The notes beneath the pieces are model-generated. The model made no database searches, had not been told where the DNA came from, and saw only the letters and a list, made by a program, of their open reading frames with translations. A stretch of 64,000 bases of DNA, from the IMG/VR virus record IMGVR_UViG_3300044213_000107, positions 124,001-188,000 of that record. The stretch is one strand, 5' to 3'. Positions 2,527-31,923 of the stretch are shown one piece after another. This DNA comes from a virus. The translations under genes and the position numbers were made by a program. The number at the start of each line of letters is the position of its first letter. The first letter of the stretch is position 1.

Positions 2527-4075
2527 GTTTTACCTTTGCTAGATATGCTTCAATTTGGTCATGCTCGACATCAGTTAATAAGTCTGCATCGTATTTACCT
2601 GCGGCCAGTTGTTCTATTAACCAAGGAATATATGCTTCGTTGTAGGCATAACTGTCAGAATTGTTTCTATCCACTTCTACCCATTTTACTTTGTTCCACT
2701 TAAACAATCGAGGCGGTAAGTAATCAACTCGTAGGTACATATCACCTTTAGCAGGGCTTATCGGAAATGCAGTTCCAAATCCTGCAGAAATCTGCTGGTG
2801 CATTTCGTTGTCAGCTAACGCTGTTAAAAATGGCAGTTGCGATACATTTTTTTCTGCTATTTGATTGGGCTTTTCTATATTGCTGTCAAGCATGTCATCA
2901 ACTGCCGCCTGTTCCTCTTTGGTTAGCTCAGCAGACATCAAAGGAACATTGTCTTCGGGTTGACTGTTGGTAACCACCAAAGGTGGTTCTACCACAGGTT
3001 CTTCGGGCGTGTATACCAATGGTTTAACTTCAGTGCCTAGTCCTGTCCAAGGACGGTCCAAATAAGGATGTTTTTCAAACACTGACTTTTCGGGTTCTGG
3101 TTTAACAGGTTCATTAAACATCCATCCAGGCGGGTGCGGGTCAGAAAATGGTTCTGGCTCTACAGGATATTCTTCCTCCGATGCTGCCTGTGCTGCCTTG
3201 ATGTCTACTACATCCATTTGCTGGGACGGATCTTCTATTTCAGCTTTTTCTTCTGCGGTAGGAGGTTCTCCAACTTCTGCTACCCAAGAGTCGTGTTCAA
3301 CTTCTTGGGGTTCTTGTTCTTCGCGAATCCAAGCAAATGTCATTTGGCTGGCCAGTAACATCACAACTGCCAATGGGTCAAACACAATAACAATCAAAAT
3401 AATAACCCAAGTTACTGCTCGCTCCAGGATTGATGCATCTGGATTGTCCCCATACACAAATGCCGCAATGTATTTTATAGGACCAACTTCCGCTTCGACC
3501 TTTCGTACTTCGGCGGCAATAGGCGCACGGGCATCTGTAAGTTCCGCAATAGACTTCTGCGACTGTGATATTTCATTTTGAAGTCTAACACGTTCTTTCT
3601 GCTGGGACTTACGCAAAGCCACAGCTTTGTCGGCACCCTTTTCATCTGTTGAGCGGCCCAGTACTTGGTCCACTCCTTCATCCATCTGTTTAAGTGCCCG
3701 ACGGTCTGCTTCAATATTTTCCTTTTCGGTTTTAATTTTTTCATCATATATTGCTATTTTACTTTGAACATCACCTGATACTAATGTTTGGTCACTGTGT
3801 GCTTTCGAAAGGAAGCCAAATATACCTAAACTGGTAATAAACATTAGAATTGCCACTGCCGTAACTGCATAGGTTTTCATTAGTATGGGCAGTCGTGGCC
3901 AGTGTGCTTTAACCCAACTTGCGGTTACAAGTTTGCCAACTTCCAGGCTAATGCCCATAATAGCAATTGGTATGGCGGCGGCAGAGAAAATGGCCATTAG
4001 ACCCATTACCGAGTAGTAAATGGCCACGCCACTAATGGTTAAACCAGAAAGTAATAATAAGACTGCAAGTATCAT
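2516..4075 (-). CDS. Large phage membrane protein with coiled coil
   Basis: 519 residues. Hydrophobic segments at about 2-21, 25-46, 68-90 and 222-246 predict three or four transmembrane helices. Between the third and fourth lies a charged coiled coil (about 105-200). After the last helix comes a long acidic, proline-rich region (250-400) and a compact C-terminal segment with aromatic clusters. Similar membrane-plus-coiled-coil proteins occur near structural genes in T4-like marine phages, but the role is unknown. A late-promoter box ends 6 nt before the ATG and there is no ribosome binding site, so the message may be leaderless. Confidence 0.65.
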   Translation of the reverse strand: MILAVLLLLSGLTISGVAIYYSVMGLMAIFSAAAIPIAIMGISLEVGKLVTASWVKAHWPRLPILMKTYAVTAVAILMFITSLGIFGFLSKAHSDQTLVSGDVQSKIAIYDEKIKTEKENIEADRRALKQMDEGVDQVLGRSTDEKGADKAVALRKSQQKERVRLQNEISQSQKSIAELTDARAPIAAEVRKVEAEVGPIKYIAAFVYGDNPDASILERAVTWVIILIVIVFDPLAVVMLLASQMTFAWIREEQEPQEVEHDSWVAEVGEPPTAEEKAEIEDPSQQMDVVDIKAAQAASEEEYPVEPEPFSDPHPPGWMFNEPVKPEPEKSVFEKHPYLDRPWTGLGTEVKPLVYTPEEPVVEPPLVVTNSQPEDNVPLMSAELTKEEQAAVDDMLDSNIEKPNQIAEKNVSQLPFLTALADNEMHQQISAGFGTAFPISPAKGDMYLRVDYLPPRLFKWNKVKWVEVDRNNSDSYAYNEAYIPWLIEQLAAGKYDADLLTDVEHDQIEAYLAKVKHDQ

Positions 4076-4081
4076 AGAGTG

Positions 4082-4089
4082 TATTTATT
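4082..4089 (-). promoter_or_regulatory. T4-type late promoter box (AATAAATA)
   Basis: One mismatch from TATAAATA; box end to ATG distance is 6 nt. Confidence 0.5.
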
Positions 4090-4123
4090 GGTATTACTCT
4101 AACAGTTTACACAGAGTTTTTGA

Positions 4124-6334
4124 TTATGTCAAGACTTGCCAGCCGATTTCGCCCAAAACATCGGCATTATTTGATGTTGATGTGATTACTAAGGTAAGTG
4201 TATCCGAAACGTTGGCCAGTGTGCGACCAAGTTGGTATTGGAATATACCTTGACTTTCGAGTGTAATGGCAGTTCTGGCATCGGCATAGCCCGCGGCAAC
4301 TTCGGTGCCGCCCGAGACTGCGGTAGCGGCCGAGTCTACATCTACTGCACCAGTAGCAGTAGTACCGGTCCAGGTAGCACCAGTTAAGGTAGCATTCAAT
4401 AATAACGCCCACCGATAGTAGTTTACTGAAGGACTCAGGATGTCTACCTGTGTAGGGTTAACCACAGAATCTAATCTACTGCTATTCATTCTAATGCTGA
4501 CCAAAGGTATATATGTTCCTGCTGATGTAACACGTTTGGTAGTAACACCAGTGCCGGCTGTTTCGGTATAGCCAATTTCGTTGTAGCCGGCTTCGCTCAT
4601 TACACTACAACAAATCTGTTTCATTGTACTGGCCTGTGCGGTTGCACCAGTATTGGTTATTTCATAGCGTATGGGCAGAGTTGCTGTCTGCATATAGGTT
4701 GTGGTATAGTTAGTGCTGTTAGCGTGATGAAACTTGTGGCAACACACATATTGTCCATTGATCACAAAACCTGTGCGTACTGTGCCCACACCTAACCACT
4801 CAATGTCGCACCAGAATATTTGTGGTGCGGCTGTGTTAAGTGTAATGCCGCTAGGACCTGTGCCGTCTAATCGGTCATAGTTCCACGAACTCTGTGCTAT
4901 TCTTTCTTCGGCTAATGTTCCAGAACTTGAACTGCGAATAACCATATTCAGTGTACTGTTGGCCTGTTCAAAGTAAATGCCATTTGAGGCACCAAAGTAG
5001 CCCACACGCTGACGTAGGTTGTTTTGTGCTGGTGCCATAACAAAGGTACACAGGATAAGTAAACTCTTACCTGGCTGATAGTTGAACACACGCTTGGATT
5101 CACGTATGACCTCTGATCCTGAACTTGTGGTAACATTAAGATTACGTACATCGGCGTTGAAGTCGTAGGTAACAGTTCCGCCGGTGCTGACAGCATTACT
5201 AAACTGTCCTCGGGAGATATAACGCAAGGCACTATCAAATATAGTAACTGGTTCACTAACACGTAGTCGACCAAAAGCATCATAGGCAGTTGGTGTAAAT
5301 GTTACTGTTGGTGTGCCATTAATCGATACATTTGCATTAGAAGGAAATGTTGTAGTAATATTACCTGCAACTTGCCAAGGTGTTGTGCCTTGATTTACTG
5401 TAATAGGTTGGTCTGACCCACCAATGTTGCCGTAGATGTGTACGTTGCCAGTAATAGTAGGTAGTTGTGTTATTGATACATTACTTGGAAAGTTATTAAC
5501 ATTTACATTACCAGCAATAGTAGGTAGTTGTGTAATTGATACATTACCTGATACTCCTACACTACCTGTAACAGGTGGCATCTGTGTTATCGATACATTA
5601 CCTAAGGCAGGTAACTGTGTTATGCTTACATTACCACTTACACTAACTCCAGGTAGTTGTGTTATTGATATGTTACCTGATACACCAACATTACCTGTAA
5701 CAGCAGGCATCTGTGTAATGCTAACATTACTTGGGAAATTATCTACATTAACATTACCACGAACAGCAGGTAACTGTGTTATGCTTACGTTGCCAAGTGC
5801 TGGTAATTGAGAAATTGAAACGTTACCACTCACACCAACATTGCCACTTACTCCAACGTTGCCTGTGATAGACGGCATTGTGGTTATCGATACATTACTT
5901 GGAAATACAGGAAAATTATTTACATTAACATTACCAGTTATTGTTGGTAGTTGTGTGATACTTATATTACCAGGAAAGTTAGTAACCGCAACACCTGGCA
6001 TTTGTGTAATGCTAACATTACTGGGAAATGCTGGAAAGTTAGTTACAGCGACATTGCCAGCGACACGAACATTGGCGTTACCATCTAAACTTACTGGTAA
6101 CCAAGGTACTGTTAGTATACCAGATGTACCAATTTCATCAAGATGAACGTGTACTGCATTATCTGGAGTTGAATCAACTTGAACTACACCAGGAATATTT
6201 ACATTGCCACTAATGTTAATGTTGCCAGCAAAGCCTGTGCGTACAGTTACATCACCACCGTCATTTAGATAAAGAGCGTTGGTTAAATTTTGTAGTAACG
6301 GATTTACACCTGGGCCTTTGTTGCTGGTGCTCAT
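4124..6334 (-). CDS. Tail fibre / adhesin protein with GNVSITQLP repeats
   Basis: 736 residues. Residues about 25-330 consist of short imperfect repeats built on GN-(V/I)-(S/N)-(I/V)-(T/N) followed by QLP, QMP or NFP, which predicts a beta-structured trimeric shaft. Residues about 350-736 form a unique domain (DAFGRLRVSEPVTIFDS, then YISRGQFSNAV) resembling C-terminal domains of phage fibre proteins. No catalytic motif is visible. The stop is one nucleotide from the downstream region and the ATG lies directly after the neighbouring fibre gene, giving a block of fibre genes from 9.2 to 4.1 kb. The repeats could support slippage or recombination. Confidence 0.75.
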   Translation of the reverse strand: MSTSNKGPGVNPLLQNLTNALYLNDGGDVTVRTGFAGNINISGNVNIPGVVQVDSTPDNAVHVHLDEIGTSGILTVPWLPVSLDGNANVRVAGNVAVTNFPAFPSNVSITQMPGVAVTNFPGNISITQLPTITGNVNVNNFPVFPSNVSITTMPSITGNVGVSGNVGVSGNVSISQLPALGNVSITQLPAVRGNVNVDNFPSNVSITQMPAVTGNVGVSGNISITQLPGVSVSGNVSITQLPALGNVSITQMPPVTGSVGVSGNVSITQLPTIAGNVNVNNFPSNVSITQLPTITGNVHIYGNIGGSDQPITVNQGTTPWQVAGNITTTFPSNANVSINGTPTVTFTPTAYDAFGRLRVSEPVTIFDSALRYISRGQFSNAVSTGGTVTYDFNADVRNLNVTTSSGSEVIRESKRVFNYQPGKSLLILCTFVMAPAQNNLRQRVGYFGASNGIYFEQANSTLNMVIRSSSSGTLAEERIAQSSWNYDRLDGTGPSGITLNTAAPQIFWCDIEWLGVGTVRTGFVINGQYVCCHKFHHANSTNYTTTYMQTATLPIRYEITNTGATAQASTMKQICCSVMSEAGYNEIGYTETAGTGVTTKRVTSAGTYIPLVSIRMNSSRLDSVVNPTQVDILSPSVNYYRWALLLNATLTGATWTGTTATGAVDVDSAATAVSGGTEVAAGYADARTAITLESQGIFQYQLGRTLANVSDTLTLVITSTSNNADVLGEIGWQVLT
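5436..6060 (-). repeat. Short degenerate tandem repeats in fibre gene
   Basis: About 30- to 60-bp imperfect direct repeats, recognisable on the plus strand by the recurring words ATTGATACATTACC and GGTAGTTGTGT. They encode the GNVSITQLP units and are not a CRISPR array. Confidence 0.8.
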
Positions 6335-19324: not shown

Positions 19325-19332
19325 TATTTAGT
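19325..19332 (-). promoter_or_regulatory. Late promoter box (ACTAAATA) of tail spike
   Basis: TAAATAC core shared with the other late boxes; overlaps the stop of the radical SAM gene. Confidence 0.45.
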
Positions 19333-20326
19333 CAGAATTTTGCAAGGGCTTGATCTTAAAATTGGACTTGGGTAAATGCCCTTGCATAGGCAGTCTAGCA
19401 TCTAATTTGTCAGGAGTTAAATAAAATCCGCATTGATTACAGGTATTCTCGGGCAATCTTTGTGTTTCAAACCAAGCATCTATTTCATTATCTTGGGAGT
19501 TAATGCCCACCGTTTTATAATCTGTGTAATAAGGTGCCCAGTCAGGATCTTCTGTTAAGTTATAACGCTCAAGTGTATCACCTATAGTTGCACGTACTGG
19601 ACATTTGTAAACATCTCCACGATAAATTTGTACATAGTTTTTAATATGACACATTGAATGATTTTGATTTTTTGCTTCTGTGTCAGTGTAAGGCCAAACA
19701 GGTTTTAAGGTGCTTCCGTATCCAGTATAATGCGGCACAAAAGGACTGTCGTGTTGAGCAGTTAAATTTAAAATAACATAATGATTATCATCGTTGGGCT
19801 TGCTCAGTATACTAAATTTTTTATAATCAGCATCCCAGGGTATATCTGTTTTCCAATACCAACCTTTTCCAGGCCATTTTGCTTCGTACGCGGCTATGAT
19901 CATGTCTTTTAATTTGGCATAGTTTGTAACTACTAAACTACTATATGGTTCAATATCACTGTGTTTAGTAACACTTAATGCCATGTTAACACCATTAGGA
20001 TCAACAAAACATTCATCAATTCGATCAAACAATTTTTCTAAATAATAGCCATTTGTATTAACCCATACATGACCATTTCGTGGCCATGTACGACGTGCGG
20101 CCAAATACCAATCTACCACCTGCGGATGCATCAGTGGTTCACCACCAAAGAGATTAACACGCTCAGGATTAATTCGTTTGCCCCAGAACGCCAACCACTC
20201 TTCAGCATCTTCTAATCGTACAGTGCCTTTTACACGATCATGATCACTAAATGTGCAACACCCTTCACATGCCAATTGGCAACTGCGTATAATAACTAAG
20301 TCTAAATGTTTTACTGGATGCTTCAT
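19328..20326 (-). CDS. Radical SAM enzyme with SPASM-like C-terminus
   Basis: 332 residues from ATG 20326, chosen because it forms an ATGA overlap with the nuclease gene. C16-x3-C20-x2-C23 (SCQLACEGC) is the canonical 4Fe-4S/SAM site; FGGEPLMHP is the GGE motif for SAM binding. C-terminal cysteines in CHIKNYVQIYRGDVYKCP and NTCNQCGFY suggest an auxiliary cluster. It is not QueE-like in size or layout. Substrate unknown; candidates are a peptide or protein modified in the phage or host. IscU/IscA genes are in the same operon, which could supply its clusters. Confidence 0.88.
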   Translation of the reverse strand: MKHPVKHLDLVIIRSCQLACEGCCTFSDHDRVKGTVRLEDAEEWLAFWGKRINPERVNLFGGEPLMHPQVVDWYLAARRTWPRNGHVWVNTNGYYLEKLFDRIDECFVDPNGVNMALSVTKHSDIEPYSSLVVTNYAKLKDMIIAAYEAKWPGKGWYWKTDIPWDADYKKFSILSKPNDDNHYVILNLTAQHDSPFVPHYTGYGSTLKPVWPYTDTEAKNQNHSMCHIKNYVQIYRGDVYKCPVRATIGDTLERYNLTEDPDWAPYYTDYKTVGINSQDNEIDAWFETQRLPENTCNQCGFYLTPDKLDARLPMQGHLPKSNFKIKPLQNSD

Positions 20327-21033
20327 GCGGTTAGATAATATAATTGTACACGTTTCAACCACTCGTCTGACCAGTGTTTAAATTCTTCTGTGTCTACCAC
20401 AAACTCTAGATATTCAGGAGTTGAATACGATCCATCTTCTAGTTGTTTAGGTTGTACACACATCATAATAACACCTTGGTCGATGTTGGTACCGTGTGTT
20501 TCGTTGTGTGCGGCTGCATAGGCTGCTAGTTGTAAAAAGTAATCGCCGATGTATTCACGCCGTTTAACTTTGTTACTTTGCTTGAAGTCTATGATCGCAG
20601 GACGACCTTTGTATACACCAATGCAGTCTGTGGTGCCGGCGTATAGTCCCGAATAATACACAGGAACTTCAACACCCCAGAATTCACTGACATTTTCTAG
20701 TCCTTGTAGAATAACCTGTGCAGCCATAAACCACGACGGGTGGGCATAAGGATTTGAAGGGAACTGCATCATCTGCTCACTTAGTATATACTGTTCTAAG
20801 TAGGCATGCATTCGTGTTCCACGATTTGCGGCTTCTGTGACAATTTGTTGTGCACGTTGTTCTCCCACAGCCTTTTTCCAATTGGCCAATGCTTGCCGAG
20901 ATTCTTCACTTTTGGTTTTATCTAAGATTGTTGTTACAGACGGAACTTTACTGCCATCTGGCAAACAATAATGTCTTTTACCCTCTATAGTTGTTCTACT
21001 AAGAGGGGCATAATTATATGGAGATTTTATCAT
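20323..21033 (-). CDS. PD-(D/E)XK exonuclease, RecB/Cas4-like
   Basis: 236 residues. Core motifs are RGTRMHAYLE (helix before the core), GTTDCIG with the first Asp, AIIDFKQS (the D-x-K part) and YFLQLAAYA (the Q-x3-Y motif IV). Length fits the single-domain RecB-family nucleases of T4-like phages. No cysteine cluster like that of Cas4/AddB is seen. Likely degrades or processes DNA ends; overlaps the radical SAM gene by ATGA. Confidence 0.85.
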   Translation of the reverse strand: MIKSPYNYAPLSRTTIEGKRHYCLPDGSKVPSVTTILDKTKSEESRQALANWKKAVGEQRAQQIVTEAANRGTRMHAYLEQYILSEQMMQFPSNPYAHPSWFMAAQVILQGLENVSEFWGVEVPVYYSGLYAGTTDCIGVYKGRPAIIDFKQSNKVKRREYIGDYFLQLAAYAAAHNETHGTNIDQGVIMMCVQPKQLEDGSYSTPEYLEFVVDTEEFKHWSDEWLKRVQLYYLTA

Positions 21034-21036
21034 TCT

Positions 21037-21357
21037 TTATATTCGGAAACTTTGACCGCAACCGCATTTATCACGTTCATTTGGATTTTGAAATTCAAAG
21101 CCTTCATTTAGGCCATTTTTAACATAGTCTACAGTCATGCCTTGTAAGTATACACAACTTTTTGGATCTACAAATATTTTACAACCTGCACAGTCGATAA
21201 CTTGATCTTCAACAGTGGGTGTATCTACATATTCGAACACATACGCAAGACCACTACAACCAGTTGTTTTTACACCTAGCCGAATACCTTCACCATGTCC
21301 TCGGCGACTAATAACTTGTTTAATTTTACTGGCAGCGGTATCAGTTAATGTTATCAT
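21037..21357 (-). CDS. iscA: IscA/ErpA-type iron-sulfur carrier
   Basis: 106 residues, full A-type carrier. The three ligands are present: Cys34 in KTTGCSGLAY and the CGCG pair near the C-terminus (KCGCGQSF). The protein accepts clusters from IscU and passes them to targets. Its start overlaps the end of the split iscU by 17 bp, an Isc-like order. Probable target here is the radical SAM enzyme encoded two genes downstream (inference). Confidence 0.94.
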   Translation of the reverse strand: MITLTDTAASKIKQVISRRGHGEGIRLGVKTTGCSGLAYVFEYVDTPTVEDQVIDCAGCKIFVDPKSCVYLQGMTVDYVKNGLNEGFEFQNPNERDKCGCGQSFRI

Positions 21358-21643
21358 GTTTCTTTTTATAATCTTCTACTGCAGCTTTAATAGCGTCTTC
21401 GGCTAGAATTGAACAATGGATCTTTACTGGTGGTAGCGCAAGTTCTTGAGCGATATCTGAATTTTTGATCTGTGTTGCCTTATCAATGTGCATACCTTTG
21501 ACCCATTCGGTAATCAATGAACTTGATGCGATTGCACTGCCGCATCCATAGGTTTTAAATCTCGCATCTGTTATTGTTCCAGTTGCAGAGTCAACCTTAA
21601 TTTGGAGTCTCATTACATCTCCGTTAACCGCAAGCTGGGGCAC
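21341..21643 (-). pseudogene. iscU: IscU C-terminal part (frameshifted relative to its N-terminal part)
   Basis: Carries almost the whole IscU core after the first active-site cysteine: GDVMRLQIKVDS, FKTYGCGSAIASSS with the second Cys, the LPPVKIHCS co-chaperone/Cys motif (LPPVK is the HscA-binding site) and AEDAIKA. It is one frame away from the fragment at 21624-21740 that holds the N-terminus and first Cys. The open frame begins at a GTG without a ribosome binding site, so independent translation looks weak. Either a real disruption, a recoding site or a sequence error. Confidence 0.85.
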
Positions 21644-21801: not shown

Positions 21802-22248
21802 TTAACTAGCGGCTGCACGGCTGGCCATTGCAGCTACCGTTTTGTTTTCTTTATCAGCATCACCTAAACCAGCATTGGCAGCATCTAAATCTGATCCTGT
21901 TTCTGTTGGTTCATCTTCATATGGTTCCAAATATACATATTCTTCACCGTTTTCATCTGGTTCAATATTTTTGATTAGGTTTTTAACCGTATCATTTTGA
22001 CTATATGCATCTTTAAGCACTCGAGCATTGAACATTTCCGCGCCGGCATTACGAACTTGGTTAATAAGAGTTTTAACACTAACACGTGGAACACTATGGC
22101 CCATTTCGTTTGCACGATTTTGTAAGTATACCAATTGATCAACTAATATATTATCACCGCGCACATCAGCATGATCTTCAATACCATCAGTGTCATCTAG
22201 GCCAAGACCCAGATCATCGTCTTCAACAATAAAGTCGCGTGCTCTCAT
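21802..22248 (-). CDS. Putative internal head protein with capsid-targeting peptide
   Basis: 148 residues, acidic. The first nine residues MRARDFIVE end in I-x-E and are followed by DDDLGLGLDD, matching the T4 gp21 protease recognition (L/I-x-E) and the N-terminal capsid-targeting peptides of T4 internal proteins. A helical middle (LVDQLVYLQNRANEMG) and an acidic, Ala-rich tail follow. No enzyme motif. Its ATG overlaps the stop of the upstream coiled-coil gene. Packaging into the head is an inference from the prepeptide. Confidence 0.65.
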   Translation of the reverse strand: MRARDFIVEDDDLGLGLDDTDGIEDHADVRGDNILVDQLVYLQNRANEMGHSVPRVSVKTLINQVRNAGAEMFNARVLKDAYSQNDTVKNLIKNIEPDENGEEYVYLEPYEDEPTETGSDLDAANAGLGDADKENKTVAAMASRAAAS

Positions 22249-24968: not shown

Positions 24969-24976
24969 TATTTATC
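24969..24976 (-). promoter_or_regulatory. Late promoter box (GATAAATA)
   Basis: One mismatch from TATAAATA; leader of about 33 nt to the ATG at 24930. Confidence 0.6.
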
Positions 24977-24990
24977 ATCTTGTACAAAAA

Positions 24991-26943
24991 TCAAGGATTG
25001 TGTGCAAAGTTGGCTGCACTAAAAACTCCCCGATTAACTAGTTTTATTTGTCCAGCTGGAGTATTTACCACAAAACCTTCGCCTTCGGGTTTTCCGTTAA
25101 CCTGTTGATGTATACCAACAACTTGTCGGTTTAACTGTTGAACAAGATTTTCTTTTAATTGATATATTGCTGACCAAATTGATAATACCGCCATAGCCCC
25201 AGCGGACTGATATTTTACATAACCTGCTGCAGTTTCGTGTCCATTATTCTGCAACCAAGGCAATAAATCTTCTTGTGCTTGGCCGGTAATGCGTTTATTT
25301 GTATAGGTTTTTATCGCTTGTATAGTGTCAGTATCAGCAGATTTTAAGAATCCGTTAGCAGCCGAACCGTGTGTTTTAATTGCAGCCGCGGTGGCTTTTA
25401 ACAATTGCACAGGCTCATTTACACGGAATCGCAGGCCTGCGTTTGCAGTAAGTATTGCAACAGAATCATTCTTATTAAGGCCTTGCCCATTCCAAGGAAC
25501 TGACTTACTGCCGGGTTCGGCAAAATATTGATGTACAACTACTCCACCTGTGTGCGTGGCTATTTGTTTACCTAATGGACTATTAGCATCTACACTATAT
25601 TCTACTGTGTTAGGACGAAAATGATATTGTCCATTTGTGGGCGTTAATGCGCCGGCCCACAACAGATCACCCCAAAAATATCCTGGATTATTGCCAACTG
25701 CAGCTTCGAGGCCGGGCCATATGTGTCCTAATTTACGATATAAATCAGGTCTTAGATGCGCAGAAGATTTTTGTTGATCGTACTGTTCCCAGGCTCGTGG
25801 ACTATCTGCAAGTACACCCTTGTCAAACATGTACTTGTCGCTAACAGACAATTTTCCGTTGGCATCACGACCAAATACTAGTGCAGGTTTTCCGTCCCAT
25901 TTAATAGTAATACGATTTGGTTCTTGGACTGTTAACATTAATTCTTTTAATGCAGTAGTTGCAGAATCTACTCCTTCGAATATGCTGTCCTCGGGATGAG
26001 GGATTTCTCCGGGACGCATAATGCTTTCTATCATCTCACGAACTTGTCCGGCACGTGCTTGGCGTTCTGCAGCTTTGTGCGCTTTAAATTCGCTGGTTGT
26101 TACTTTAACCAAACGTCCATTAATGTTTAAAACTAAACCTTCAATGTTGGGTCCCAGTTTAAACTTGTCTAATATATTAGGATGCGTAAGTATGTACTCA
26201 GCTAGTTCATCTTTTACGGATTGTATAATTTGTTTTAAGTTTTCTTTTGCTGCTGCATCATCACGTTTACGACTTTGTAATGTAGCTGTAGCTTCAGGAC
26301 CGAGACTCATAATAGGATCAATAAAACCCGATATATCAATAGGACCTGCGGTTTTTAAATCAGCATTTACAAACTTTATGCTGTCATTGCTTTGTTTGAA
26401 CAAACTAACTAAAATAGCGTTAGAATCAGGATGCGATTCCCCAGTACTTGCAACCAGCACATCAAACGGCACTATAGTCATTACACGACCTAGTTTTTCT
26501 TGGTCGTAGTTAATGGTAACAAATTTAATGCCTTCACCGGATACCTCGCCCATGGGGTTATAAAATAATTCGCAGACTATTTTTGTATCAGGTGGTAGTG
26601 TTTGTACGAACTGTGATGAAGTTATTATACGCCATATTTCGTCATAATGCCCGGCACGCAATACAATCTCATCACTGCTACCGCGACTACGTGCATGTGC
26701 TGTAAATGCCCCAGGCTCAAATATAGGACCTGTACGTGATCCTTCAAAGAAAGGTCGACCATCGGAACTTACACCAAATCGTGCTCCAGCACCATCTACT
26801 TTTAAACTAACTTCTAGATTGCTGAGTTGTCCGTGTAGTGTTCGGCCAATGTGTTGAATAAACTGTACAAATTCGACATCGGGCATTTTCTGCAGATGCA
26901 GCATTCCTGTGCGAGCAGTTGTTTGCACTTCTTCATCGATCAT
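24991..26943 (-). CDS. Double nucleotidyltransferase (two ligase-like domains)
   Basis: 650 residues. Domain A: motif I KVDG (48-51), FEGSRTG (66-72), CELF around Glu125, motif IV IEGLVLNI (268-275) and motif V RLVKV (278-282), all as in covalent DNA/RNA ligases and capping enzymes. Domain B repeats the pattern: KWDG (348-351) KPALVFG, GYFWGDLLWAG, and C-terminal EGFVV (622-626) with IKLVNRG (633-639). The two C-terminal segments look alike, so duplication is likely. Both nucleophile lysines are kept. No OB-fold or zinc finger is evident. It overlaps the Pol-beta-like gene by ATGA; the pair may work together on nucleic-acid ends. Confidence 0.75.
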   Translation of the reverse strand: MIDEEVQTTARTGMLHLQKMPDVEFVQFIQHIGRTLHGQLSNLEVSLKVDGAGARFGVSSDGRPFFEGSRTGPIFEPGAFTAHARSRGSSDEIVLRAGHYDEIWRIITSSQFVQTLPPDTKIVCELFYNPMGEVSGEGIKFVTINYDQEKLGRVMTIVPFDVLVASTGESHPDSNAILVSLFKQSNDSIKFVNADLKTAGPIDISGFIDPIMSLGPEATATLQSRKRDDAAAKENLKQIIQSVKDELAEYILTHPNILDKFKLGPNIEGLVLNINGRLVKVTTSEFKAHKAAERQARAGQVREMIESIMRPGEIPHPEDSIFEGVDSATTALKELMLTVQEPNRITIKWDGKPALVFGRDANGKLSVSDKYMFDKGVLADSPRAWEQYDQQKSSAHLRPDLYRKLGHIWPGLEAAVGNNPGYFWGDLLWAGALTPTNGQYHFRPNTVEYSVDANSPLGKQIATHTGGVVVHQYFAEPGSKSVPWNGQGLNKNDSVAILTANAGLRFRVNEPVQLLKATAAAIKTHGSAANGFLKSADTDTIQAIKTYTNKRITGQAQEDLLPWLQNNGHETAAGYVKYQSAGAMAVLSIWSAIYQLKENLVQQLNRQVVGIHQQVNGKPEGEGFVVNTPAGQIKLVNRGVFSAANFAHNP

Positions 26944-28025
26944 TTTTTGTAGTAACTAGCGTGTAATTGTTGTATAGCAGCTTTATCATAAGGAACGGCT
27001 AATACACGTGTCATAAAGTTAAAGGCCGCAGTCTTTTCTTCATTGTCTCGTGTAGGATCATCTCGATAAAGTTCTTGCCCTTGTGGACCATATAATGTAT
27101 ATGCAAATCCTAGTATAACGCTGGCCTGTTGTTTGGCATTAAAATATTTTTTAACCAGTTCTAATGTTCCGACAAAACTCCAAAACTTGTTTACATCAGC
27201 AGGATCAAACTCATTGCCAAAGAATATGCGGCACATAGCCAACAAGTTTGTTTCGTATGTGCTTTCTTTAGTAGGAACTTCTTTAAACACAGGCAAGCCA
27301 TCTATTTCACGTTGTTGACCATTATCTACTACTGGTTTTAATTTATAGCGTAGGCCACGAGTTACTGCAAAAGCAAGATCAGTGGTTTTAACTTGTTTAG
27401 GTGTTTCTCGTTTGCCAGATAACACCACAACATCGCGCAGACTAGGTGTACTCAATGCTCGTAACAGGTATTTGTGGAATACACCTTTTACTCCCTGTTC
27501 TAGATCTTCCCAGGCACTGCTGTGACTAAAACGAGACCACTCAGTCGGTGCACCTTTTTCATATTGCACCTGCTCTAGATCAATCTGTACATTTTGGCCA
27601 AATTCTGTTAAATGCCATAGTGTAATAAACTGTTCAGCTGAAGTTTTATATCCAATGAATCTTGCTGGACCAATGGTTTTTCCTGCAGCAGAATCAAGGA
27701 ATTTTTGTATTGTTTCGGCGTTAGTTTCATCTACTTGTGTGTCTATGTCCCCGGCTTTGGTTTTCTTTGCACGTCTAAATGCATCGTCGGGCAACTCAAG
27801 ATTAAACCAATGTAAACTCGATCCACTTAAAAATTCTTGGCTCTTTAACAGTTTAGGATTCCATAGTGGATGTCCAGCAAATTTATGATATGCAGAATTT
27901 ACAGCGGCCAGTAATTGTTGTAACGTAGGTACCATTTGCTGACGTAGCTCAAGTTGCATTGCTTGTGCTTCTTGATCGCCAATTTGTACATTGCCACCTT
28001 CAATTAAAAATTCACGTGCTCTCAT
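26940..28025 (-). CDS. Pol-beta-superfamily nucleotidyltransferase with capsid-targeting peptide
   Basis: 361 residues. The first nine residues MRAREFLIE end in L-x-E followed by GG, matching a T4-type prohead-protease site and capsid-targeting peptide. Residues 64-99 contain LSGSS (G68-S69), then GDIDTQVD with D93-x-D95, and a third acid in VQIDLEQV (D149): the GS-DxD-D arrangement of minimal nucleotidyltransferases. The rest is helical with a basic patch. It overlaps the gene on each side (TAATG upstream, ATGA downstream). Possible activity: nucleotide addition to RNA, DNA or protein; packaging means action just after injection (inference). Confidence 0.72.
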   Translation of the reverse strand: MRAREFLIEGGNVQIGDQEAQAMQLELRQQMVPTLQQLLAAVNSAYHKFAGHPLWNPKLLKSQEFLSGSSLHWFNLELPDDAFRRAKKTKAGDIDTQVDETNAETIQKFLDSAAGKTIGPARFIGYKTSAEQFITLWHLTEFGQNVQIDLEQVQYEKGAPTEWSRFSHSSAWEDLEQGVKGVFHKYLLRALSTPSLRDVVVLSGKRETPKQVKTTDLAFAVTRGLRYKLKPVVDNGQQREIDGLPVFKEVPTKESTYETNLLAMCRIFFGNEFDPADVNKFWSFVGTLELVKKYFNAKQQASVILGFAYTLYGPQGQELYRDDPTRDNEEKTAAFNFMTRVLAVPYDKAAIQQLHASYYKK

Positions 28026-29089
28026 TAACGGCTTTTCATCCTACGCCACAATGCTTCGGCTATGTCAACGGTTTCTTCGACTGGCACTTTTTCTAACGAT
28101 TGCATATAATTGCGTTGTTGTGGAGTCAAATTTGGTGCAGCAGGTGCCGCCGCAGCTATTGGAGATGCATATGGATTATTCATACTATAAGCACCTCTTG
28201 CTGTTGTTGCTTGTGGGAGTTTAGGCGTCTGAGGTTTTTTAGCTAACATACCTGTGTATGTTATATTAGGCTGTTGGCTAGACGCTGGAGTTGTTTGTGC
28301 TGTTGGCTCTACGGTAATAGAAGGTTCTGGTGTTGCTTGTTTAGTTCTTGAGCCGGTACCAGTACGTGCTCGTAGTGCATCACCAAATCTCCGATCTAGT
28401 CCCAAGGCATCTGCAGTACTGGCTGCATAACTTACTGGTGCTGATAACGTTCCCGGTGCTGCAGTTGGTGTATTGGCAGCAGCTGGTGTTGTTGCAGTTG
28501 GTGTATTTATAGCAGTCGGTTCTTCAATAGGTGCGCCACCAACTGCTTGTACTCCGGTGTTATAACCTTTCCTTGCAGCACGGCCTATGCCTTGTGGTAT
28601 ACCAGCTACCGCACCAACTGCTCCAGCAGCACCACCTAGAGCATTTGCTGCCCCTTTACCTACTGAGGTAACTGCTTTTCCTAAGTTAGTGCCTTTAGCA
28701 CCTAAATATTGTCCTGCTTGACCAACATCTTTTTCGACTGCGTCGTAAGCACCTGCACCTTTTTGAGCAATGTTTTTACCTGCATTGTATACACTTGAAA
28801 CAGGCCTTGCAACAGCTTGTCGAAATGTTTCTGCACCGGCATTGCCAAGTGCATTTGCGGCACCAGCAACTGCATTGCCAGTTTGTTGTAATCCTTTTGA
28901 GTACGCATTGGCTCCGCGCTCAATAGATTTTGCTCCGCGTTGTATGGCACCGGGCATTTTAGATAGTTTTTGGCCTGCCCATTTCGCACTTTTTCCTACA
29001 TTGTTTACCGCAGATTTTGCACCACGCCTAACATCATTCCAACTTAATTCATCTATTTGTTGTTCAGTTAAAACTTCATTTACTTTCAT
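28025..29089 (-). CDS. Ala/Gly/Pro-rich internal virion protein with capsid-targeting peptide
   Basis: 354 residues. N-terminal MKVNEVLTE ends in L-x-E, then QQIDELSW; the same 9-residue spacing is seen in two other genes here. Then comes a long Lys/Ala/Gly-rich amphipathic region (40-190: repeated AGKNIAQKGAGA-like helices), a Pro/Thr-rich linker (190-330) and a compact tail VDIAEALWRRMKSR. It resembles injected internal head proteins by composition only. Coupled to the nucleotidyltransferase gene by a TAATG overlap. Confidence 0.6.
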   Translation of the reverse strand: MKVNEVLTEQQIDELSWNDVRRGAKSAVNNVGKSAKWAGQKLSKMPGAIQRGAKSIERGANAYSKGLQQTGNAVAGAANALGNAGAETFRQAVARPVSSVYNAGKNIAQKGAGAYDAVEKDVGQAGQYLGAKGTNLGKAVTSVGKGAANALGGAAGAVGAVAGIPQGIGRAARKGYNTGVQAVGGAPIEEPTAINTPTATTPAAANTPTAAPGTLSAPVSYAASTADALGLDRRFGDALRARTGTGSRTKQATPEPSITVEPTAQTTPASSQQPNITYTGMLAKKPQTPKLPQATTARGAYSMNNPYASPIAAAAPAAPNLTPQQRNYMQSLEKVPVEETVDIAEALWRRMKSR

Positions 29090-29334
29090 TATTTCGTTTC
29101 GTGTCTACGCACGCCTCTAACAAATTTTTTGGGATCTTGGCTTTTAATGCTGTTAAGCAATCTGCGCTCTAGATCTAGTGCTTGCTGGTCGCCATAGTTT
29201 TCGCGAATAAAATTGATAAGATTTACAGCACTTTGTATAACATGCTGGGCGCGACTTTCAACTAAGTTTGCCGGATCTTTAACGGTTGGCATGCTGGCCA
29301 ATTCATCAAGAATACTACGGGTATGCTTCTGCAA
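29089..29334 (-). CDS. Small helical hypothetical protein, probable TTG start
   Basis: 81 residues. GGAG lies 6 nt before a TTG at 29334; the frame continues further upstream to another TTG at 29346, but that codon overlaps the GGAG. All-helical with RAQHVIQSAVNLINFIREN and a basic tail. A late-type box (CATAAATA) lies about 20 nt upstream. It starts the head/virion operon that includes the nucleotidyltransferase genes. Confidence 0.55.
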   Translation of the reverse strand: MQKHTRSILDELASMPTVKDPANLVESRAQHVIQSAVNLINFIRENYGDQQALDLERRLLNSIKSQDPKKFVRGVRRHETK

Positions 29335-29354
29335 GATAAACTCCAATTTATTGT

Positions 29355-29362
29355 TATTTATG
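29355..29362 (-). promoter_or_regulatory. Late promoter box (CATAAATA)
   Basis: One mismatch from TATAAATA; serves the 29.3 to 25 kb operon. Confidence 0.5.
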
Positions 29363-29419: not shown

Positions 29420-30871
29420 TTATACTCCATTTTTTAACCCAGCCAACATCTGTTTAAGTTTAGTGCTTTTTGCTTCGCCTGTGACCTTAGGTGCACCACC
29501 GGGAGCAATATCAAGTGGATCAGCAATACCTTCTTTTAACTTTGGGATTTCCCATTTAGTAGCTGGTTTAGTCTCGGCAGTAGGGTTCTTTATTTGATTC
29601 ATGATATTCATTGATTTTACCGGGCCACCTCCTGCTTCGTTAGCATCTACACCGGGATCAGTGATACGCATAGTTTCAACGTTGTATTCTAGATCAATCT
29701 TTTGTCCTACACCAGTACTATTACGTGATTTCATACATTGTATTTGATAGCGTCCACGTTCACGCATTGCTCTAGATGTAAAAATACCAAACACATTATC
29801 TGCTGTGTTAATTTTACTGATACCACCGGCAATATGGCTGTGATCAAACTCAGGTTCATCTACTGCACTACGATTTAACTGACTTGCAGTTACCATTAAC
29901 ACGCCTAGTTCTTTGGCCAAGTTACGTAATTCTTCTGACACATACTTGTCCTTGATAAACTGATCATTGGGATTGACTTTGACACTCACTGGCATCAACA
30001 AATCCAAGTAGTCAATCATCATAAAGTCAACTTGACGTCCTGTTTGTATTTGATACTCTTTTAAGAAACTGCGAATGTCGTTGATGTTGCTTTGTGCCGG
30101 CAATGCTTTGATCTGATATGTTCCAGACTTTTTACCCACCATACGAACTTTGAGTTCTGTGGTTTCAATGTCCTTGCGAATATCTTTAGTACTCATACTT
30201 GCTAACATTGCATCTGTTCTAAGTGCGGTCATTTCTTCTGACAATTCTAGACTGATGTATACACCATGCAGTCCTGCTTGCACCCAGCTCAGTGCTATGT
30301 TCATCATAACCAATGACTTGCCTGAACCTGAACCACCAGCAAAAATATTAAGTTCGCCGCGGCTAAAGCCACCGTATAACAATCTATCAAGTTGTGGCCA
30401 ACCTGTGCTGACTTGTCCACCAGAATTAAAGTACCGGTTAATACGCCCACTGGGATCTGCAAAGTAGTCTGTGCCCATGTCCTTGGTTAGACTAATTTGT
30501 ACAGCGTCTTTGATAAGTTTCTCCACAGGCTCATATTCGCCTTTTTCCAACAGGTCTGCGGACTTTAAAATTGCACGCTCCAGCTCTTGACGACGTGTGA
30601 ATTGTTCAAATTCATCCAAAAACCAATTGCTGTTTGCAGCTGATACAGGAACTGCTCGAAGTTCAACGTTTGTGGTTGCTTTGATTTGATCATATGTAGG
30701 CAGAGTCTTGTATTTGTCTGAATACTCAATGATGAACTTTGCAGTTTCTCTAAGACTGCGATCAAAGTTTTCTGGATTGTAAATATTCTGCACTCGCACA
30801 AAATCCTGTGCATCAGACAGCATGGTTTCTAATAATAATTTTTGTAATTCTGTTGTGTATTCTTTAGTCAT
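29420..30871 (-). CDS. Replicative DNA helicase, DnaB/T4 gp41-like
   Basis: 483 residues from ATG 30871, which shares its A with the primase stop (TGATG). An N-terminal helical domain (1-150) leads to the RecA-like core: Walker A GGSGSGKS, MIDYLDLLMP as Walker B, TASQLNRSA (motif H3) and the arginine-finger-like QCMKSRNS. Acts as 5'-3' hexameric helicase with the primase. The C-terminal 60 residues are Lys/Pro/Gly-rich and variable. Confidence 0.93.
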   Translation of the reverse strand: MTKEYTTELQKLLLETMLSDAQDFVRVQNIYNPENFDRSLRETAKFIIEYSDKYKTLPTYDQIKATTNVELRAVPVSAANSNWFLDEFEQFTRRQELERAILKSADLLEKGEYEPVEKLIKDAVQISLTKDMGTDYFADPSGRINRYFNSGGQVSTGWPQLDRLLYGGFSRGELNIFAGGSGSGKSLVMMNIALSWVQAGLHGVYISLELSEEMTALRTDAMLASMSTKDIRKDIETTELKVRMVGKKSGTYQIKALPAQSNINDIRSFLKEYQIQTGRQVDFMMIDYLDLLMPVSVKVNPNDQFIKDKYVSEELRNLAKELGVLMVTASQLNRSAVDEPEFDHSHIAGGISKINTADNVFGIFTSRAMRERGRYQIQCMKSRNSTGVGQKIDLEYNVETMRITDPGVDANEAGGGPVKSMNIMNQIKNPTAETKPATKWEIPKLKEGIADPLDIAPGGAPKVTGEAKSTKLKQMLAGLKNGV

Positions 30872-31923
30872 CAATGTTCCTGTAAATTACTATATAGTTT
30901 CTTTTTCTTTAGTTCAATCTTTAAGCGGCTCGTTTCTTTAGCGGCTAAAATACTTTTTAGCACAAACAATTTTCCATAGCGATCAACTGCGGCCGATACA
31001 TCTTTAATGTCGGCTTCCCATTCGGGGAAACTAACCGACCAGCCGTACTCTATAGCGGCATCAATAAGTTTTACGCCAGCACGGTCTCGATCTGGTACAA
31101 CAATAACCTCACGAGTTAAACTGTCAATAACGTCGGCTTGAATTTCACTACATTCATTGCCTAGTATAGCAACACCGTCAATGGCCATTGCGTCAAACGG
31201 GCCTTCAACTACAACAACAAATTTAGCGTCTGGCAGTTGTAGATCTGTGTTAAACACATAGTTAGACTCGTAATTAGAATGATATTTGGGCTTAACATTA
31301 TCTTCAATGGCTCTGGCAGTGTATCCAATTATTTCTTTTTTCCAAGTGAACGGAACAATAACACGCTTGTGTAAGTTGTATGCAGTAGTTTCTGTCGTAT
31401 AAAACTCGTACTTTTTGAAATCAATGTTTCGTTTGTAGATATAGTCAAATGCTTGAACAAACTGTGGGTGAACCAGTTCGTCTTCGTCTTGAAGCGTCAA
31501 AAACGTTTTCCACTGACTAAAACTAACACTGCTGTCGGGTAATGCCCTGGGTTTAAAATCAATTTCCTGTTGTGCTTCTTCCGCAAACGTTTCTGGGGGT
31601 GCTACTAGATCTTTTACGCGGATTGCTTCGATTACCAGTCGTTTGACTTCGTTCTCTGACGCACCAAACCATGATAATAGTTTTCGAAATTTATAAGTTA
31701 AGTGCCGGCCAGGAATATAACTAGCTTTGAAATTGCAGTTAAAGCAATGATATGAAACACCACCATCTGAGTTTATAACAATACCACCACGCCCACGAGT
31801 GTCCGCAGATTCACCGTTATGGTGACAACAGGGTGCGTTAAAACTAGTCCATCCCGAAATAGCATTAGTTTTACGTTTTACTGGCAATAATAGTTGTACT
31901 GCGTCTTGTATAGGCGTAAGCAT
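30871..31923 (-). CDS. DNA primase, T4 gp61-like
   Basis: 350 residues. N-terminal zinc ribbon (CCHH at 32-35, CFNC at 60-63), then an RNA-polymerase-like region and a TOPRIM domain with VVVEGPFDAMA (the Glu) and VVPDRDRAG (the DxD pair). Works with the gp41-like helicase encoded by the next gene. The ATG is 6 nt from TATAAT and no ribosome binding site is visible, so the operon mRNA is probably leaderless. Confidence 0.92.
   Translation of the reverse strand: MLTPIQDAVQLLLPVKRKTNAISGWTSFNAPCCHHNGESADTRGRGGIVINSDGGVSYHCFNCNFKASYIPGRHLTYKFRKLLSWFGASENEVKRLVIEAIRVKDLVAPPETFAEEAQQEIDFKPRALPDSSVSFSQWKTFLTLQDEDELVHPQFVQAFDYIYKRNIDFKKYEFYTTETTAYNLHKRVIVPFTWKKEIIGYTARAIEDNVKPKYHSNYESNYVFNTDLQLPDAKFVVVVEGPFDAMAIDGVAILGNECSEIQADVIDSLTREVIVVPDRDRAGVKLIDAAIEYGWSVSFPEWEADIKDVSAAVDRYGKLFVLKSILAAKETSRLKIELKKKKLYSNLQEH

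Follow-up and report, generated by a model that had tools for sequence, protein, structure and literature searches.

Predicted virion packaging of a Pol-beta-fold nucleotidyltransferase with ligase-fold and NMNAT-like partners in T4-type phages

The window analyzed here is a 64,000-nucleotide stretch (bases 124001-188000) of the 260.7-kb IMG/VR phage record IMGVR_UViG_3300044213_000107, and it carries two overlapping genes encoding proteins of 361 and 650 residues, which we name P and K-D. We propose that P, a predicted nucleotidyltransferase of the Pol-beta fold, and K-D, in which an unnamed ligase-fold N-terminal half (K) is joined to a DUF6267 C-terminal half (D), belong to a virion-packaged set of three enzymes completed by H, a partner resembling nicotinamide mononucleotide (NMN) adenylyltransferase (NMNAT). 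P, with K and/or DUF6267 and H, would be injected for the repair or ligation of nucleic acid ends, a reading to which we give a probability of about 0.5. The packaging and the architecture of the set are well supported, and we infer injection, substrate and cooperation between the enzymes. The source is a large T4-type phage, whose genome encodes homologues of the gp23 major capsid protein (E 1.9e-99) and of the gp21 prohead protease (PF03420, E 1.7e-25).

An initial annotation, made from the sequence alone, had recognized in P the minimal nucleotidyltransferase pattern GS (residues 68-69), D93-x-D95 and D149. These residues are indeed present and, together with E151, D174 and K180, are invariant in 66 of 66 distinct relatives. 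A model generated by AlphaFold2 from 57 aligned relatives has a mean predicted local distance difference test (pLDDT) score of 95, and DNA polymerase beta is its top match in Foldseek (probability 0.98), with Pol mu, AsfvPolX, terminal uridylyltransferases, MenT4 and JHP933 among the matches that follow. Judged from this predicted fold and its GS...DxD...D active site, P is probably a Pol-beta nucleotidyltransferase, and we call it divergent because the best Foldseek E-value is only 5e-3. No Pfam family matched P at E<=1, including RlaP and the other Pol-beta models, and no NCBIfam model did either.

The C-terminal half of K-D scores 122.1 bits against DUF6267 (PF19782), for which the gathering cut-off is 27. 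Both halves exhibit motifs I (KxDG), III (acidic), IV (EG) and V (Lys) of covalent nucleotidyltransferases, motif IV reading E268-GLV in K and E622-GFV in D. Among distinct relatives, K48, D50 and E125 of K are kept in 63 of 63 and E268 and K280 in 62, while in D the corresponding counts are 61 of 61 for K348, D350, G351 and D426 and 59 for E622 and K634. Three mixed K/D alignments were discarded, because they set D rows on the K half or misplaced the C terminus of K; the subset used instead has, for each row, its motifs aligned to the correct half. The AlphaFold2 model of K-D (37 rows) has a pLDDT of 92.5, with a flexible joint near residues 304-312. In a Foldseek search of the PDB, whose output does not assign matches to the K or D half, the Naegleria RNA ligase came first (E 1.6e-4, probability 1.0), with an archaeal RNA ligase and T4 Rnl2; DNA ligases (including AsfvLig) and tRNA ligases ranked below them. 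Against viral models, the top matches were DUF6267 relatives, some of them named cytidyltransferase-like, and then phage RNA ligases. Structure prediction thus supports both folds suggested by the initial annotation, and K-D appears to consist of two ligase-fold domains with intact active sites, each of which is predicted to form a lysine-AMP (Lys-AMP) adduct.

That annotation had also described K-D as a duplicated ligase-like enzyme. Two complete domains are there, each with a conserved motif I lysine, but K-D is a fusion of K with DUF6267, and we reject a recent duplication: the two are distinct families, only distantly related (hhalign probability just 90%, E 1.8e-6) and found separately in other phages. 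Relatives of K occur in X1 (where motif I is KLDG), in Moby (KMDG) and in many viral contigs. We likewise rejected K-D as the replicative DNA ligase, a separate DNA ligase being encoded elsewhere in the genome. The Pfam RNA_ligase model PF09414 has no match in K-D or anywhere else in the genome, K-D matches no NCBIfam model, and searches of solved structures with the sequences of P, K and D (single-sequence and profile) gave nothing usable. We therefore place P, K and D at the superfamily level only, because neither the canonical Rnl family (PF09414) nor any named Pfam Pol-beta family was recognized in them; D is additionally assigned to DUF6267 on its sequence.

Are P and K associated in other phages? 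Among 64 distinct P proteins, three have too little sequence downstream to be assessed, and at 60 of the remaining 61 loci K either shares the polypeptide with P or follows it on the same strand; at 54, H is found too. The order is always P-K-H, and in 43 loci the three form a single polypeptide, as in the 1245-residue protein of contig L009, while in L007 they are three genes following gp41. The pairing that the initial annotation found unfamiliar is therefore real, but it is widespread and often a single polyprotein, and both the conserved partner H and a conserved, predicted protease site between P and K had been missed. H scores above the PF01467 cut-off, residues G29 and H30 of its HxGH motif are kept in 75 of 75 sequences, and its profile is closest to the archaeal NMN adenylyltransferase MJ0541 (E 2.4e-8), NCBIfam also finding it NMNAT-like. 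It is probably a HIGH nucleotidyltransferase of the NMNAT type, with a putative specificity for NMN. In the source phage, H is encoded away from P and K-D, at about 33.4-34.5 kb of the genome, begins with the capsid-targeting-like MFIAEMFIKE and has a neighbor starting MKTTDFIVE.

DUF6267 has ties of its own to H, to which it is fused in L118-L122 and L177-L180 and adjacent in cyanophage-like contigs and in Syn9. In L106, L112, L149, L151 and L154 its fusion partner is another Pol-beta-like domain, P', which starts E↓GG(N/A) and is related to P (hhalign 94.7%, E 6.3e-8). The module has further variants. Downstream of P in a Vibrio phage (L002:8472-9923), a protein with ligase-like KTDG motifs, recognized by eye, and a C-terminal H domain may represent a third ligase-type/H fusion. 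A 2135-residue protein (L036:6001-12405) joins P-K-H to an NTP_transf_2-like stretch, Amidoligase_2 and DUF6934. A module-adjacent gene with a D...SxKK motif, resembling PD-(D/E)XK nucleases, occurs in L004:6914-7858, L001:7032-8036, L189:27459-28793 (S-SCSM1 gp90) and L005:3194-4924 (Syn9 gp182), and is possibly a fourth partner.

What suggests that these proteins travel in the phage head is, first, the N terminus of P. T4 capsid-targeting propeptides are about 10 residues long, and the cleavage logo of gp21 is illustrated by LIE-9 (PMC9026906); P carries LIE at residues 7-9, and residues 1-9 (MRAREFLIE) are its only segment with a pLDDT below 50. In 57 of 57 relatives with a prefix, a Glu directly precedes the invariant GGN, and the third residue before the predicted cut (P3) is always one of L, I, V and F. 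These relatives come from a search of viral contigs that found 160, of which the best 80 were kept. The prefixes themselves vary in sequence and in length, from 9 to 22 residues, or 124 to 143 where another domain precedes. In L087:5593-6009, L076:5587-6003 and L094:5575-6003, a zincin-like domain of about 140 residues (LAHEL(T/V)HA, HExxH) precedes GGN and ends in E, and would be split from the nucleotidyltransferases by the head protease. Relatives without a prefix, in X1, Moby and Vibrio phages, start M-GGN, so that prefixed and prefix-free forms would reach the same mature N terminus. With gp21 and gp23 homologues in the genome, the cleaved T4-type start proposed in the initial annotation is well supported: P is predicted to begin with a capsid-targeting peptide cut by a gp21-type protease. 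Where K, D or H is encoded by a gene of its own, the protein often has its own capsid-targeting-like start, ending in a site of the [LIFV]xE type.

The second line of evidence comes from the polyproteins. An [LIFV]xE site is present in 45 of 45 distinct P/K linkers, mostly just before K, against 21.5 in shuffles of the same composition, and controls in which D, K or A replaces E remain at or near shuffled values. The K/H linkers of 41 P-K-H fusions contain none, where 10.9 would be expected. Since the linkers come from related proteins, these counts are not independent. In the source phage, K-D itself opens with such a site, MIDE↓E, at the position of the P/K site of fused relatives, and we infer a role for it there. 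The P gene ends AAA AAA TGA (26940-26948) and the K-D start codon overlaps it in the -1 frame; one might speculate that a -1 slip could append K-D to P.

Published virion proteomes provide the third line. H-type proteins have been detected by mass spectrometry in virions of S-SM1 (PMC3037559), S-SZBM1 (S-SZBM1_140; PMC9146016), S-SCSM1 (gp91, with its neighbor gp90; PMC9602691) and S-CREM2 (gp154; PMC10665884). S-SZBM1_140, gp91 and gp154 match our H profile and have the capsid-targeting-like starts MRFRQFIIE, MKSFLQFLKE and MKNFSSFLTE, respectively. S-SCSM1 gp90, which is annotated as a virion protein, is weakly similar to Syn9 gp182, whose gene precedes that of DUF6267.

In the mechanism that we propose, the capsid-targeting peptides would carry the proteins into the prohead, where a gp21-type protease would cut after (L/I/V/F)-x-E, freeing P with its GGN start and, in the polyprotein versions, a K-H unit. 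The packaged enzymes would then pass into the host along with the DNA. At an early stage of infection, P would most likely add one or more nucleotides at damaged nucleic acid ends and the ligase domain or domains would seal these via Lys-AMP, with H supplying NAD+ (nicotinamide adenine dinucleotide) or another adenylylated dinucleotide (AppX). That H serves the ligase step is argued from its constant linkage to K or D. As the substrate we favor RNA over DNA, for example tRNA cut by a host defense: RNA ligases head the fold matches, DNA ligase is encoded separately and the genome contains 25 tRNA genes, although this evidence is not decisive. These tRNA genes cover most amino acids and are arrayed at record positions 195743-204218 (L018:7743-16218). 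A defense against host tRNA or RNA cleavage, as put forward in the initial annotation, is plausible, RNA ligases being the best fold matches.

Several points weigh against this proposal. Plain end repair offers no evident task for H, whose role is the weakest link; moreover, the C-terminal motif of the H encoded by the source phage is divergent. P, K and D were assigned by fold and motifs, and the Foldseek E-values are modest (5e-3 for P, 1.6e-4 for K-D). A fold, besides, does not tell RNA ligation apart from DNA ligation, nor either of the two from capping. K-D lacks a full capsid-targeting peptide and begins with MIDE only. The literature searched yielded virion data for neither P nor K, and in the S-SZBM1 virion list, as far as it was covered, the DUF6267 protein (gene 141) does not appear. 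Finally, the proteomic studies themselves caution that their virion detections may include co-purified contaminants.

If the substrate were DNA, the set would be an injected kit akin to nonhomologous end joining or base excision repair, in which a PolX-like gap filler and a DNA ligase mend nicks, gaps and ends of the incoming genome. Pol beta, Pol mu and AsfvPolX head the fold matches of P, K-D also matches DNA ligases including AsfvLig, and the genes adjoin the replication genes gp41 and gp61. We nevertheless consider this unlikely, given that RNA ligases outrank DNA ligases for K-D, that the phage has its own DNA ligase and that Pfam recognized neither an oligonucleotide-binding (OB) fold nor any other DNA-ligase domain in K-D. 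The NMNAT-like character of H, and the recurrence of such proteins in cyanophage virions, would also fit a counter-defense centered on NAD+, in which H restores NAD+ after host NADases have acted, and the targets of the ligase-fold and Pol-beta domains are not polynucleotides but host proteins or small nucleotides; protein targets have been proposed for the Pol-beta nucleotidyltransferases of polyvalent proteins (PMC5512222). This reading is rather improbable, since it leaves unexplained the close tie between ligase fold and H, seen in the lack of a K-H protease site and in the D-H fusions. Somewhat more doubtful again is a virion-delivered end-tagging system: H would make AppX (such as NAD+), the tightly linked ligase-fold domain would use such activated compounds to transfer or seal groups on RNA or DNA ends, and P would extend or prime these ends. 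If true, a polyprotein processed by the head protease would chemically mark, protect or repair ends within minutes of the start of infection; no such chemistry has been described for injected systems.

It could also be that MRAREFLIE is a coincidence and that P and K-D are ordinary cytoplasmic enzymes. K-D has no full capsid-targeting peptide, and in X1, Moby and Vibrio phages the relatives open with MGGN, lacking any prefix. However, a Glu just before the cut and a hydrophobic P3 in all 57 of otherwise variable prefixes, with matching sites at K starts and in P/K linkers, make this very unlikely. A structural or scaffolding role for catalytically relic proteins, as internal head cargo or core, would suit the capsid-targeting-like N termini, the inferred virion location and the head proteins encoded nearby, but is likewise very unlikely because, by itself, it does not account for the near-invariant catalytic residues of P, K and D across distant relatives.

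The proposed injected end-repair set combines features of kinds already known, namely injected capsid-targeted proteins, polyvalent proteins and Pol-beta/RNA-ligase pairs. Like the T4 internal head proteins Alt and IPI-III, which are diverse and unrelated cargoes with a short N-terminal propeptide ending in L/I-x-E and cut by gp21 (PMC9026906, PMC3012670), P is predicted to be targeted to the head, but here the cargo comprises three nucleotidyltransferases conserved as a set, in many cases within one polyprotein that contains a protease site. Polyvalent proteins (Iyer et al. 2017, PMC5512222) are large proteins of tailed phages that combine many domains, Pol-beta nucleotidyltransferases among them, and for which injection is predicted; the order Pol-beta, ligase-fold, HIGH nucleotidyltransferase is not described in the passages searched, and the present set has a T4-type targeting peptide and protease sites. 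Multidomain fusions occur among relatives of the set; in the window, P and K-D are encoded by different genes. RlaP Pol-beta nucleotidyltransferases paired with ATP-grasp RNA ligases are predicted to restore lost nucleotides before ligation (PMC7824862), but P and K-D match no Pfam RNA-ligase or Pol-beta model, have H as third partner and would be packaged in the head. African swine fever virus also encodes a Pol-beta-family enzyme and a ligase, PolX and its partner, both among our fold matches; that virus is unrelated, and its pair acts in DNA repair without H. The NMNAT-like virion proteins of S-SCSM1, S-CREM2, S-SZBM1 and S-SM1 were published as lone NAD+ enzymes, and here become part of a set. 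No description of the three-enzyme set was found in the literature searched, which took in few subscription papers.

As can be seen in Table 1, both open reading frames have the initially annotated positions and lie on the minus strand; they share the ATGA noted at the outset, which may couple their translation. The gp41/gp61 context of the module is common to X1, Moby, Syn9 and L007. Upstream of the module in L007, the gp41-like helicase (2960-4765) has an apparent intein, inserted between a CVHPETE-type start and SHNTGAGKS. Besides the 148-residue protein, whose start is near-identical to the targeting peptide of P, further proteins of the source phage begin with MRATEFLLE, MRIKEIILE, MFISDLFEKE or MLLAEIISE (L012:6038-8562, L015:4229-7207, L020:5348-5683), and these starts suggest that the packaged complement is larger still. 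Two adjacent genes at 21037-21643 resemble, by eye, the iron-sulfur assembly proteins IscA/HesB and IscU/NifU, and a radical S-adenosylmethionine (radical-SAM) gene lies beside them (19328-20362), a cargo unusual for a phage. Nothing was drawn from ATAAATA late-promoter-like sites near 29355-29361 and 24969-24975, the window holding 10 such sites against 25.3 expected by chance. A PADLOC search gave no match.

Table 1. Features of the P/K-D locus, in window coordinates
Feature	Position	Strand	Remarks
K-D gene	24991..26943	(-)	650 aa, double ligase-fold protein
D domain (aa 301-650), Pfam DUF6267 (PF19782)	24991..26043	(-)	KWDG348-351, D426, E622-G, K634
Motif I KWDG of D, predicted adenylated Lys348	25891..25902	(-)	61/61
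K domain (aa 1-300)	26044..26943	(-)	KVDG48-51, E125, E268-G, K280
Motif I KVDG of K, predicted adenylated Lys48	26791..26802	(-)	63/63
[LIFV]xE site MIDE↓E opening K-D	26929..26943	(-)	position of P/K protease site in fused relatives; putative role in source phage
ATGA stop-start overlap of P and K-D	26940..26943	(-)	sequence
P gene	26940..28025	(-)	361 aa; phrog_19290, unknown function
P third carboxylate D149	27579..27581	(-)	kept 66/66
P motif D93-x-D95	27741..27749	(-)	kept 66/66
P motif GS (68-69)	27819..27824	(-)	kept 66/66
Propeptide MRAREFLIE of P	27999..28025	(-)	predicted prohead-protease cut after E9; mature start GGNV
Ala-rich 354-aa protein adjoining P	28025..29089	(-)	capsid-targeting-like start MKVNEVLTE; function unknown
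Virion structural protein	29089..29346	(-)	phrog_11854, E 1.3e-17
gp41-like helicase and gp61-like primase, just upstream	29420..31923	(-)	homologues in window
148-aa protein	21802..22248	(-)	start MRARDFIVE

Our proposal predicts that virions contain peptides starting at GGN and, in phages with the polyprotein, peptides starting just past the P/K site. DUF6267, a family previously without a function, here gains a putative ligase fold and a partner in K, and several PHROG families of unknown function, found in many T4-type phages, similarly acquire a predicted fold, intact active sites and partners. If the proposal is correct, these phages would inject ready-made enzymes for the processing of nucleic acid ends, released from a polyprotein by the protease that matures the head.

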